Positions 3,922-7,470 of a DNA stretch of 40,321 nucleotides are shown piece by piece. Position 1 is the first letter of the stretch, and each line of letters opens with the position of its first letter. The stretch lies in contig NZ_JAAGVY010000041.1 of the NCBI RefSeq assembly GCF_010686655.1, positions 1 to 40,321 on the forward strand, read 5' to 3'. Origin of the DNA: Cryomorpha ignava. Lineage in GTDB: Bacteria; Bacteroidota; Bacteroidia; Flavobacteriales_D; Cryomorphaceae. A program made the position numbers and the translations under genes. Under the pieces are notes generated by a model. That model was not told the DNA's origin. It did no database searches and saw only the letters and a program-made list of their open reading frames with translations.

Positions 3922-5736
3922 ATGCAGAAAATAAGAAATATTGCCATTATTGCCCACGTTGACCACGGAAAAACTACCCTGGTTGACAAAATGATTCACA
4001 TGGGTAAATTATTCTCAGATCACGAAAATGCCGGAGAGCTGATTATGGATAGTAATGATTTGGAACGCGAACGCGGGATAACCATTACGTCCAAAAACGT
4101 ATCAATTACCTATAAAGATTACAAAATCAATATCATTGACACCCCCGGTCACAGCGACTTTGGTGGAGAGGTAGAGCGTGTACTCAATATGGCAGATGGC
4201 GTATTGCTCCTTGTAGATGCCTTTGAAGGGCCCATGCCGCAAACGCGATTTGTATTAGAAAAAGCGATTGAACTGGGATTGAAACCAATTGTAGTTATTA
4301 ATAAAGTTGACAAGGAAAACTGTACCCCTGAAGAAGTTCATGAAATGGTTTTTGACCTTATGTTTAACTTAGGTGCTACAGAAGATCAGCTTGACTTTCC
4401 TGAAGTATACGGTTCGGCCAAGCAAGGCTGGATGAGCGATGACTGGAGAAAACCTACTGAAGATATTTCATCTTTGATGGATGAAATCATTAAGCATATT
4501 CCAGAGCCAAAAGTGGAAGAAGGTAATCTTCAGATGCTTATCACGTCTCTTGACTATTCTTCATTTATTGGTCGTATTGCTATTGGTCGCGTAAAACGTG
4601 GATCTCTTGAGGCGGGACAGAAAGTGAGCCTGATAAAAAGAGATGGCACTATTATTAAGAATAAAATTAAAGAGCTTTACGTTTTTGAAGGCCTTGCCAA
4701 GAAAAAAACGGATCAAAGAATACAAGCCGGAGATATTTGTGCAATAGCAGGTCTTGATGGATTTGAAATTGGCGATACCATTGCCGACTTTGAAAATCCA
4801 GAAGGCTTACCTCCTATCTCAATAGATGAGCCAACCATGAGTATGGTTTTTACTATCAACGATTCTCCATTCTTTGGTCAGGAAGGTAAGTTTGTTACTT
4901 CTCGCCACCTGAAGGAACGTTTGGAAAAGGAACTTGAGAAAAATCTGGCTCTACGTGTTGAGAAAACAGGAACCAGCGATGCCTTTACTGTATTCGGTCG
5001 TGGTGTACTCCACCTCTCGGTTTTGATTGAAACTATGCGTCGCGAAGGATACGAGTTACAGATAGGACAGCCACAAGTAATAATTAAAGAAATAGATGGT
5101 GTAAAATGCGAGCCGGTAGAGGAATTGCGCATTGACCTTCCGGAAGAATTTTCAGGAAAAGCCATCGAAACAGTAAACGTGAGAAAAGGCGAGATGGTAA
5201 GCATGAACCCGAAAGGAGATAGAATGCTACTGGAATTTAAAATGCCTTCACGTGGAATTATCGGTTTGCGTAATTATATGCTAACAGCAACAGCTGGTGA
5301 GGCAATCATGTCGCACAGATTTTTAGGATTCGAACCCTATAAAGGTGCTATTCCATCGCGTCAAAACGGATCTATGATCAGTATGGAGCAAGGTAAAGCA
5401 ATTCCTTATTCACTTAGCAACTTGCAAGACCGTGGTAAATTCTTTGTTGATCCCAACGAAGATATCTACGAAGGACAAGTTATCGGCGAGAATACCCGCC
5501 AGGGTGATTTGGTAATCAACGTTACCAAAACCAAAAAGATGTCGAATATGCGAAGCTCTGGTGCTGATGATAAAATAAAAATTGCACCGGCAATAAAGTT
5601 CTCGCTTGAGGAAGCATTGGAATATATCCAGGGCGACGAATATGTGGAAGTAACACCGAAATCGCTTCGCGTTAGAAAAATGCATTTGAAAGAAGCAGAT
5701 AGAAAACGCTCTAAAAATAGCGTTACAAGTATTTAG
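3922..5736 (+). CDS. typA: Ribosome-associated GTPase TypA/BipA
   Basis: A 604-residue translational GTPase of the EF-G superfamily, close to the usual 600-615 residues for BipA. The GTPase motifs are all present: G1 [10 protein letters not shown] (from residue 11), G2 in RERGITI, G3 DTPGH, G4 NKVD and G5 GSA. After the G domain come the beta-barrel domain II, EF-G-like domains III and V, and the BipA-specific C-terminal domain ending in [10 protein letters not shown]. BipA binds the ribosome and is needed for 50S assembly and growth under stress or cold. The gene looks monocistronic, with its own promoter and a downstream hairpin. Confidence 0.97.
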
Positions 5737-5845: not shown

Positions 5846-5918
5846 AGTTTGGGTTTCCAATAGTAAGGCGGTCTGGGATTTCCTCGAGATTTTTGACTAG
5901 AATTGGGAGCTATTAGAA

Positions 5919-6128
5919 TTGCAAATACAAAAAAAAAAATTCACTTTGATAGAACATTTTTTTTCTTGTCCGTATTGTTCCGAATCCATATCTGTGTTGA
6001 TAGACACGTCTATACATCAGCAATCATACATTGAGGACTGCGAAGTATGTTGCAATCCCATGGAAATAAAAGTGCGCATAGAAAACGGTGAACTCACAGA
6101 ATTTGATGCCCAGAATATCGGTCAATAA
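5919..6128 (+). CDS. CPXCG-motif cysteine-rich protein
   Basis: A 69-residue protein of the CPXCG small zinc-binding family, whose biochemical role is unknown. It has SCPYCSESISVLID near residue 17 and the paired motif EDCEVCCNPM near residue 41. Together these give a four-cysteine metal site. The start is taken as TTG: the frame has no ATG after its upstream stop at 5898, and GGGAG (5905-5909) sits 9 nt before the TTG. An 11-A homopolymer (5929-5939) lies just inside the start, so a base-count error there could move the true N-terminus. The core of the protein is unmistakably this family. Confidence 0.85.
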   Translation: MQIQKKKFTLIEHFFSCPYCSESISVLIDTSIHQQSYIEDCEVCCNPMEIKVRIENGELTEFDAQNIGQ

Positions 6129-6234
6129 GTAATCGGAGCACCATTTAGCGTACTTTAAGAAAAAAATCTGTCGAAGAGATTGCACCATACTCCAGTAATT
6201 TTTAAAGTTTTATCGAAACATAAAACGAGATAGC

Positions 6235-6242
6235 TATTTTTG
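6235..6242 (+). promoter_or_regulatory. Putative -7 element for the structured RNA/transporter leader
   Basis: TATTTTTG fits TAnnTTTG. A TTTT stretch at 6208-6211 lies 23 nt upstream as a possible -33. The predicted RNA start is about 6249, in front of the hairpin series at 6303-6486. Confidence 0.5.
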
Positions 6243-6248
6243 TGAGTC

Positions 6249-6495
6249 CAATCTGCGATCAATCTTAAAATTACATTAACAAAAATATGCTTTCATGTAA
6301 GGTTCCCTTGCCGTACATTTGCAGTGTATTCTCCCGCAAGGGAAATACAGCGAGGTTTTGGTTAGCCCCGTTAGTACCACCGCAAGGTGTACTAACAGCC
6401 GCAAGCGAATGTCCGATCTTTAATGGTTGTTTTAGATTGATTGGTTATCGATTCTCTGAATCGCTTTCATTTGGACTAGCTTGCGGTTTTTTATT
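6249..6495 (+). ncRNA. Structured RNA or attenuator leader, unrecognised class
   Basis: No known RNA family recognised. Hairpin 1 (6325-6349) is TGTATT/AATACA, one bulged C, then TCCC-GCAA-GGGA. Hairpin 2 (6370-6396) has the same plan: GTTAGTA/TACTAAC, one bulged C, then CACC-GCAA-GGTG. A third domain is closed by CCGCAAGC (6399-6406) with GCTTGCGG (6479-6486), with inner GTCC/GGAC and a CGATTC-tct-GAATCG hairpin (6449-6463). It is followed directly by six T residues and a T-rich tract, so the 3' end looks like an intrinsic terminator. The transporter start follows about 45 nt later. It could be a free small RNA or a riboswitch-like attenuator. The 71-codon frame that spans it looks spurious. 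Confidence 0.6.
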
Positions 6496-6499
6496 TTCT
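6479..6499 (+). terminator. Terminator-like 3' end of the structured RNA
   Basis: GCTTGCGG (6479-6486) followed by TTTTTT and further T's. It pairs with CCGCAAGC at 6399-6406 across a structured 72-nt interior. Alternative partners exist, because CCGCAAG also occurs at 6334-6340 and 6380-6386. Confidence 0.55.
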
Positions 6500-6537
6500 T
6501 AAACTTGCGGCATCATTCTCAAGTTCCTATCCAAGCC

Positions 6538-7470
6538 TTGACCGACAACACAGTTTCCGAAATAGCTATACAGTTTTCTGATCAAAGTTTGGTTCTTCTC
6601 AATATTTGTTTGGGATTTATCATGTTTGGAATCGCACTTGGTATCGATCCCAAAGATTTTAAACTTGTAGCCAAGCGCCCCAAAAGCACCGCAGTTGGTG
6701 TTATCTCTCAATTTCTACTTCTTCCCGCAGCTACTTTTCTTATTGTGTGGATTATGCAACCCGCACCGGCTCTCGCGCTGGGCATGATATTAGTCGCTTC
6801 TTGTCCCGGTGGGAATATTTCAAACTTCATATCCTCAATCTCCGGCGCCAATGTTGCCTTGTCAGTCTCTCTTACCGGTTTGGCCACATTAATTACTCCC
6901 CTCTTTACTCCATTAAACTTCGAGTTTTGGGCACATTCGTTAGCAGATACCAGTCTGTACCTACAAAGTTTCCATCTCGAATTTATCGATATTCTAAAAA
7001 CGGTTGTTCTGCTTCTGGTTATACCTTTACTACTAGGATTGTGGGTGCGTAACAAATTCAGGGCACTAAGTCAGAAAATTGAGAAACCCATTCGCATACT
7101 GAGCCTTATTATTTTGGTGGGATTTATAGCAGTGGCTCTGGCAAATAACTTCAGCACATTTATTGATTACCTCTACATCGTCTTCCTGCTTGTGCTTGTG
7201 CACAATGGGGTGGCGTTTGCAATAGGCTATTTTGCCGGAAAGGCAGCCCGACTTCCGGAAGCAGACAGAAGAACCGTCTCTATCGAAACCGGAATCCAAA
7301 ACTCGGGTCTGGGCTTAATAATAATTTTTACTTTTTTTGATGGAAATGGCGGAATGGCCATTATAGCAGCCTGGTGGGGAATTTGGCATATTGTAGCCGG
7401 CCTGCTACTCGCCTATTATTTTAAGTACAGAGATAGGCGCGCCGGAATTCAAAAACCAATTCAATCATAA
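6538..7470 (+). CDS. Bile acid:sodium symporter (BASS) family transporter
   Basis: An integral membrane protein of about 310 residues with about nine hydrophobic segments. Family signatures are SCPGGNISNFISSISGANVA near residue 95 and the later ETGIQNSGLGL segment. These correspond to the two sodium-binding crossover regions of the BASS fold. Substrates in the family range from bile acids to pyruvate and pantothenate precursors, so none is assigned. The open frame extends back to a TTG at 6481, but that codon lies inside the upstream RNA terminator stem. The TTG at 6538 gives MTDNTVSEIAIQFSDQ, a more natural start. No ATG is available before residue 29. The stop overlaps the convergent zinc-ribbon gene by 10 nt. 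Confidence 0.88.
   Translation: MTDNTVSEIAIQFSDQSLVLLNICLGFIMFGIALGIDPKDFKLVAKRPKSTAVGVISQFLLLPAATFLIVWIMQPAPALALGMILVASCPGGNISNFISSISGANVALSVSLTGLATLITPLFTPLNFEFWAHSLADTSLYLQSFHLEFIDILKTVVLLLVIPLLLGLWVRNKFRALSQKIEKPIRILSLIILVGFIAVALANNFSTFIDYLYIVFLLVLVHNGVAFAIGYFAGKAARLPEADRRTVSIETGIQNSGLGLIIIFTFFDGNGGMAIIAAWWGIWHIVAGLLLAYYFKYRDRRAGIQKPIQS

Follow-up and report, generated by a model that had tools for sequence, protein, structure and literature searches.

A probable new family of small RNAs with a reused module, encoded ahead of a BASS-family transporter gene in one family of Flavobacteriales

Ahead of a BASS-family transporter gene of Cryomorpha ignava lies a hairpin-rich stretch of DNA, and the question that it raises is whether it encodes a leader of the transporter mRNA, a mere spacer, or a small RNA with a role of its own. 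Among Bacteroidota, small RNAs have mostly been described in Bacteroides and in a few species of Flavobacterium. The window, which is the whole stretch of DNA that was analysed, comprises 40,321 nucleotides. Comparison with related genomes shows about 167 nucleotides that carry sigma-A-type promoter boxes, a phased operator-like dyad, covarying hairpins, a terminator and two GU-rich conserved segments. In at least four of five further loci, one of these segments can form the same stem P2, closed by a UUGGUU hexaloop, between different stems P1 and P3, with a terminator directly after it. Its apparent promoter and terminator of its own, and the reappearance of its most conserved part in a few further small genes of related bacteria, make a regulatory role probable, rather than that of a mere spacer before the transporter gene. 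From the sequence comparisons, we propose with a probability of about 0.57 that it represents a novel family of small regulatory RNAs transcribed on their own, so far found only in one Flavobacteriales family. That a new RNA family with a reused module is present is probable on the same grounds.

All genes around the RNA are on the plus strand. The gene of TypA (3922-5736) is followed by that of a small CPXCG protein (5919-6128), by the RNA, whose predicted transcript of about 167 nt spans 6326-6492, and by the BASS-family transporter gene (6538-7470). The product of the latter matches the SBF family (PF01758) with an E-value of 4e-34, and TIGR00841 with an E-value of 3e-57, which is yet under the curated cut-off of that model. 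Its probable start is the TTG at 6538. There is no ATG near the conserved N-terminus of the transporter in the five loci displayed (the window, L002, L003, L004 and L006), and TTG codons about 50 nt past the terminator look like its start. The SRP RNA of the same genome is found at another place.

The RNA is restricted to close relatives. BLAST searches of 60 whole genomes with segment 6240-6500 found strong matches in the genome itself and in six of its seven relatives of the same family, and nowhere else; in the six relatives, identity over the aligned stretch is 74-86%, and the best match outside the family had an E-value of 0.0016. The RNA is single-copy in seven of the eight family genomes. 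In the eighth, G007, the BASS match begins at base 3 of the contig and at residue 147 of the protein, so that the place of the RNA was not assembled; all seven testable genomes therefore contain it. In each of these seven, as the preliminary description had it for the window, the BASS gene follows immediately 3' of the RNA on the same strand. The CPXCG gene lies upstream in six; it was not seen in L003, where TypA adjoins the RNA. Frames further upstream differ between the window and L003 on the one hand and L004 and L006 on the other.

A covariance model made from the seven sequences was run on 299 genomes of the order, where it detected all seven and one further match, weak and partial. On 395 genomes of the class, a refined model returned its own copy and one match that lies mostly inside a reading frame. 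Outside the family, these searches of order and class yielded only chance matches; they scored only 7-14 candidates per genome, so that weak relatives could be missed. Six loci were considered as distant homologues and judged to be chance matches: L028 (a 54-nt partial match of 21 bits), L057 (26 bits, mostly within a frame of 135 codons), L165 (27 bits, within a frame of 521 codons), L053 (11.9 bits) and, from a DNA pattern scan, L034 (no match to the model) and L035 (10.5 bits, within a frame of 449 codons). BLAST gave no match in phages. Rfam 15 (4227 families) has no match in the window at the curated gathering cut-off, and with E-values up to 10 the region 5900-6700 gave only matches far below it; together with the covarying helices described below, this bears out the earlier view of a structured RNA of no named family. 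No earlier description of the RNA was found in the literature searched, which lay largely outside subscription journals.

A promoter for the RNA alone is predicted in all seven genomes. In the window, the -7 box TACATTTG is at 6314-6321 and a CTTT, resembling a -33 box, is at 6290-6293, exactly 20 nt upstream; the whole element, CTTT-N20-TACATTTG, occupies 6290-6321 on the plus strand, and CTT[TG]-N20-TAnnTTTG is present in 7/7. These boxes stand amid poorly conserved sequence, ahead of the first hairpin. In Flavobacterium psychrophilum, the sigma-A -7 box is placed at -12 to -5 in the portion of the report consulted (PMC9723704), and by that spacing the transcript would start near 6326. This is about 77 nt later than the start proposed in the preliminary description, which, judging from the distance that it gave, had relied on another TAnnTTTG element, TATTTTTG at 6235-6242. 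That element is not conserved as a promoter, and it overlaps a dyad of the form TTG-N6-CAA.

The dyad, TTGTGAGTCCAA (6240-6251, plus strand), is probably the site of an activator. It is found at most 120 bases upstream of the RNA promoter in all seven loci (the window, L002, L003, L004, L005, L006 and L007), and it is the sole one among 640 trinucleotide dyads to occur in 7/7; the next reaches 4, and shuffled sequences gave a mean of 0.25 and a maximum of 3. Relative to the CTTT/G box, the dyad starts at -50 in four genomes, at -40 in one and at -39 in two, positions that differ by roughly one turn of the helix. The centre of the dyad falls about 80 or 70 bp upstream of the predicted start, a spacing that is typical of activators. 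Further upstream there is an invariant TCGA, at 6213-6216 in the window.

The fold of the RNA can be described as two hairpins followed by a long terminator hairpin. Segment 6324-6492 is more stable than its shuffled counterparts (z -5.2, 0/200 shuffles as stable), and so is the interval first delimited, 6249-6495 (z -3.4, 1/200). Compensatory changes, whose absence the preliminary description had named as a refutation, were found: in the alignment of the seven sequences, both sides have changed in 13 of 40 pairs, and pairing is kept in 96.8% of 280 cells, a percentage flattered by the fitting of the alignment to the covariance model. The covariation score is 0.387, compared with 0.150 for shuffled alignments and at most 0.089 for slid structures. 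Hairpin 1 (6325-6349), at the 5' end, consists of 6 bp, the bulged C6331, 4 bp and a GCAA loop; its first base, 6325, may lie just before the transcription start. Three of nine pairs are changed on both sides, and 85.7% of cells are paired in the model-fitted alignment. Hairpin 2 (6370-6396) is made of 7-8 bp, a bulged C, 3-4 bp and a GCAA loop, and it contributes most of the covariation (both sides have changed in 8/10 pairs, and 100% of cells pair).

The two bulged-C hairpins with GCAA loops are thus present as initially described. Their use as a rationale, as twin GNRA-capped hairpins with conserved bulges, is not supported, for loops and bulges vary among relatives. Of the six relatives, five have a predicted hairpin 1 that lacks a bulge and L003 has one with a bulge of two bases; the loops of this hairpin include TACAT, GATTCTA and GTTCA, while hairpin 2 is predicted to be bulge-free with loops GCAA, GAGG, TTAG, TTCG, GAAA and GAAA. 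Because of these differences between species, the GCAA and bulged-C design is particular to the C. ignava genome. The most conserved parts of the RNA are segments that had gone unmentioned. The case shows that scanning raw sequence can point to a probable RNA gene though the eye-catching feature, here the GNRA loops, is incidental.

The third domain, whose closing stem and T-run had also been pointed out, is formed by CCGCAAGC (6399-6406) pairing with GCTTGCGG (6479-6486), followed by T6487-6492. As a whole, the terminator (6399-6492, plus strand) has a stem of 12 pairs, CCGCAAGC..GUCC with GGAC..GCUUGCGG, in which 100% of cells are paired, two pairs are changed on both sides and ten never vary; with its T-run, it is an intrinsic terminator belonging to the RNA itself. 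A simple terminator scanner, limited to loops of 3-8, listed just the inner hairpin. Enclosed in this domain is a GU-rich segment (6417-6467) with 47 of 51 bases identical in 7/7. Positions 6421 and 6424 each differ once, and two bases in the loop of a small hairpin vary. The segment holds UGGUU at 6424-6428 (AGGUU in L003), UUGGUU at 6441-6446 and the small hairpin CGAUUC/GAAUCG at 6449-6463.

The second conserved segment, GCGAGGUUUUGGUUAGCC (6350-6367, plus strand), links the two hairpins; it is identical in 7/7, and copies of 15-16 nt are found at other loci of the family. Within it, GGUU (6354-6357) and AGCC (6364-6367) can pair as stem P2, with UUGGUU (6358-6363) as a hexaloop. According to the folding models, this segment and hairpin 2, which would be P3, can form a three-way junction, closed by the P1 stem between GCG at 6350-6352 and CGC at 6400-6402, which overlaps the 5' arm of the terminator. 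P1 has a predicted pairing probability of 0.33-0.99 in transcripts cut right after CCGCAAG (7/7 sequences), of 0.00-0.17 with 20 more bases and of 0.00 in the full-length RNA. In the main RNA neither strand of P1 varies, nor do the pairs of P2 and of the small inner hairpin, so that covariation has no bearing on these three helices. In partial-transcript folds of some sequences, the linker and the bases after hairpin 2 form an antiterminator, for which there is no covariation support. The second UGGUU of the terminator segment, as AUUGGUUAUC beside the small hairpin, is perhaps a second, worn copy of the same module. A coding role of the conserved segment was rejected by eye, as identity ignores codon positions and nearby indels break the frame.

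The linker recurs elsewhere in the family. A search of the eight family genomes that tolerated up to 3 mismatches to the linker complement gave 43 matches, namely the seven RNAs, five further copies and 31 others. Three of the further copies are in G004, one in G006 and one in G001. Those of L092 (1923-1965), L093 (1949-2009), L095 (1955-2015) and L097 (1926-1986), all on the minus strand, have their own terminators, each a separate G+C-rich hairpin with a T-run after the copy; at that of L096 (2028-2076, plus strand), which seems degenerate, no terminator is evident. For L092, L093 and L097 the order is P1, a single A (replaced by U in L097), GGUU-UUGGUU-AGCC, a P3 that varies, AAU(G/U) and P1', where P1 pairs GGUGCG with UGCACC or UGUACC. 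L095 shows the same layout with a different P1 (GCAAAUCAAG/CUUGAGAUGC). Among the lowest-energy folds of two pieces per locus, the junction was seen in both pieces for L092 and L093, in the longer only for L097, in the shorter only for L095, and in neither for L096. Over the 12 copies, 87.7% of cells pair and 5 of 12 pairs are changed on both sides, among them one of the three P1 pairs. Because stems change while loops are frozen, the loops may be what is read, which fits a binding function.

With a model (R3), the 12 copies, in seven of eight family genomes, score E-values below 1e-6 and the next match has an E-value of 0.067; as R3 was built from those copies, only the gap in score is informative. 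Run on 395 genomes of the phylum, again with only 7-14 candidates scored per genome, R3 detected its own copy and one match within a reading frame. A 16-letter pattern, searched in 399 genomes of the order, gave matches in the Flavobacteriales family and one outside it, L105 (G254), compared with 8 matches of its backwards control. The five paralogue loci have only matches far below the cut-off in Rfam (E-values up to 5). When one of them was compared by BLAST with plasmids, two records matched over a 33-base stretch (query 76-108), which lies outside the shared segment.

The paralogues have no common downstream frame that could be seen; L093 and L097 are alike, yet they stand beside different reading frames. 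In L093, P1 is preceded at a distance of 6 nt by an exact TATCTTTG box. Downstream, a reading frame of 277 codons runs in the convergent direction, and the same strand has no frame of 90 codons over 900 nt; with that box and that convergent frame, this copy is hardly a leader. Upstream of L092 there is no -7 box, and for L095 and L097 there are only boxes with one mismatch. The TTG-N6-CAA dyad is absent upstream of all five further copies.

These free-standing paralogues bear on the chief alternative, a cis-acting BASS leader that would work as an attenuator of the riboswitch or protein type. In such a leader, a junction stabilised by a ligand or a protein would keep CGC 6400-6402 paired with GCG 6350-6352, and transcription would read through into the BASS gene. 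Linkage speaks for it: the BASS gene keeps its place directly 3' of the RNA in all seven genomes although the genes further upstream differ, and it follows in L003 too, where the CPXCG gene was not seen. The gap between terminator and gene is only about 50 nt, the lack of an ATG agrees with a leader as well, and P1 shares bases with the terminator and is predicted to form in the shortest transcripts. P1, however, has only 3 bp against 12 in the terminator, and it is largely lost from the predictions after 20 more bases. In the paralogues, junction and terminator share no bases, and no gene that L093 might regulate is evident downstream.

Two further points count against a leader. Beside BASS relatives of two other families, in different surroundings, the model found no match to the RNA (L042, L043, L044, L046, L047 and L054, from G010, G045, G015, G037, G025 and G021); no match with an E-value below 0.26 came from three weaker BASS loci (L051-L053), and L045, L050, L055 and L056 were left out of this comparison. 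The BASS gene may also have its own promoter, because in 5/7 genomes the TTG of the terminator's 3' arm is followed, at a distance of 16-18 nt, by a -7 box with one mismatch; mononucleotide shuffles reach five in 0.15%. In the window this tentative element reads TTG-N16-TAAACTTG (6481-6507, plus strand), and in L006 and L007, where the box has two mismatches, it was not found. BASS linkage thus supports a leader and the free-standing paralogues support a small RNA; we gave the latter more weight and, on the sequences, consider a leader doubtful, though both could hold.

As an independent regulatory RNA, the molecule might act as follows. A transcription factor bound at the dyad would turn it on, the hairpins and the terminator would serve as scaffold and stabiliser, and the conserved UGGUU segments would act in trans, as sites for an RNA-binding protein (of CsrB or RbpB/FopS type) or as pairing seeds. 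Gene order passed down from an ancestor would explain the position beside the BASS gene, which would be transcribed from a promoter of its own that overlaps the terminator. Our first choice for the partner of UGGUU would be a protein; RbpB, for comparison, belongs to the RRM proteins. CsrB/RsmZ-type small RNAs titrate a protein through a repeated GGA motif. The present RNA resembles them in carrying a short repeated motif on a structured small RNA, with three UGGUU, two of which are UUGGUU; it differs in that the motif is not GGA and there are only two or three repeats.

A bolder and rather improbable version is that the UUGGUU junction is the module by which a global RNA regulator of this clade, either a protein like CsrA or Hfq or a small-molecule ligand, recognises RNA; the module would recur in several small RNAs and, doubled, in a master small RNA with its own activating transcription factor. 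If this were true, the junction could simultaneously gate read-through into the BASS gene. In any case, the RNA is structured and conserved from promoter to terminator and has a reused segment, so that the UUGGUU hexaloop could be used as bait for a protein, a ligand or an mRNA.

A trans-acting antisense RNA would be a special case of the regulatory-RNA reading, in which GAGGUUUUGGUUAGCC pairs with the start regions of mRNAs, as in GibS/FopS. The excerpts available for Bacteroides thetaiotaomicron describe FopS and GibS as paralogous small RNAs with one conserved segment in common and an intrinsic terminator (PMC11697453, PMC7366714). The invariant segment, the predicted promoter and terminator, and the paralogues that share the segment give the present RNA a FopS-like layout, as far as FopS is depicted there (PMC11697453). 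Complementary sites, though, are not enriched in the eight genomes: with 3 mismatches or fewer, 31 matches lie outside the module, whereas the backwards control gave 105. This makes long antisense pairing less likely, though short seeds may still serve. The segment itself can fold up as a hexaloop on a stem of 4 bp. We regard this special case as unlikely. In the part of the FopS report consulted (PMC11697453), the seed of FopS is in a 5' stretch that is single-stranded; the segment shared by the present RNAs would instead be P2 of the possible junction, and in the main RNA it follows a 5' hairpin. FopS with RbpB in Bacteroides is nevertheless, from what those excerpts cover (PMC11697453), the nearest described system in layout, sharing with the present RNA the phylum, copies with one common segment and an intrinsic terminator, though its structure is different.

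In the Flavobacteriales themselves, the sections of the F. psychrophilum report consulted describe structured, independent small RNAs and TAnnTTTG-type promoters as the main class, and they give Rfp18 as conserved in the genus Flavobacterium (PMC9723704). The present RNA is like Rfp18 and other small RNAs of that species in order, in structure and in promoter type; it was found only in its own family, and it is set apart from Rfp18 by that description, not by sequence (PMC9723704).

The sections consulted also report a 6S RNA in F. psychrophilum (PMC9723704). Judged from the sequences, it is highly improbable that the present RNA is a divergent 6S RNA of the clade, binding RNA polymerase by open-promoter mimicry: like 6S RNA (RF00013) and 6S-Flavo (RF01685) it is small, single-copy and, as predicted, independently transcribed, with a large internal loop in the long helix of its third domain, and a 6S gene was otherwise not found (RF00013 in 0/9 genomes, six of the family and three others, RF01685 in 0/8 family genomes), but neither model matches the RNA or anything else in the window, the inner stem has only 6 bp, the segment recurs in other small genes, and hairpin 1, the invariant linker and hairpin 2 presumably have no 6S counterpart. 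A long terminal stem is characteristic of 6S RNA. The absence of RF01685 says little, because this model finds little in the order anyway (three weak matches in 120 genomes, none over the cut-off).

Some minor observations were made during the searches. Of 29 viral matches of the 16-letter pattern, 24 are inside frames of at least 100 codons and none of the 29 lowest-energy folds shows the junction by eye, so that they were rejected as copies. Two viral contigs, L123 and L136, have plain hairpins outside long frames, with loop UUGGUU on a GGUU/AGCC top, which is probably chance. In L094 (G003), the 15-mer GAGGTTTTGGTTAGG occurs twice (at about 2085 and 2933), antisense to signal-peptide codons of two tandem, similar, lipoprotein-like frames, and was taken as a coincidence. 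Past the terminator of L092, on the reverse strand from about 2130, there is a run of similar short stretches (AAGGGTTTCAAG / AAACAGTTGTC) that is unlike a normal gene.
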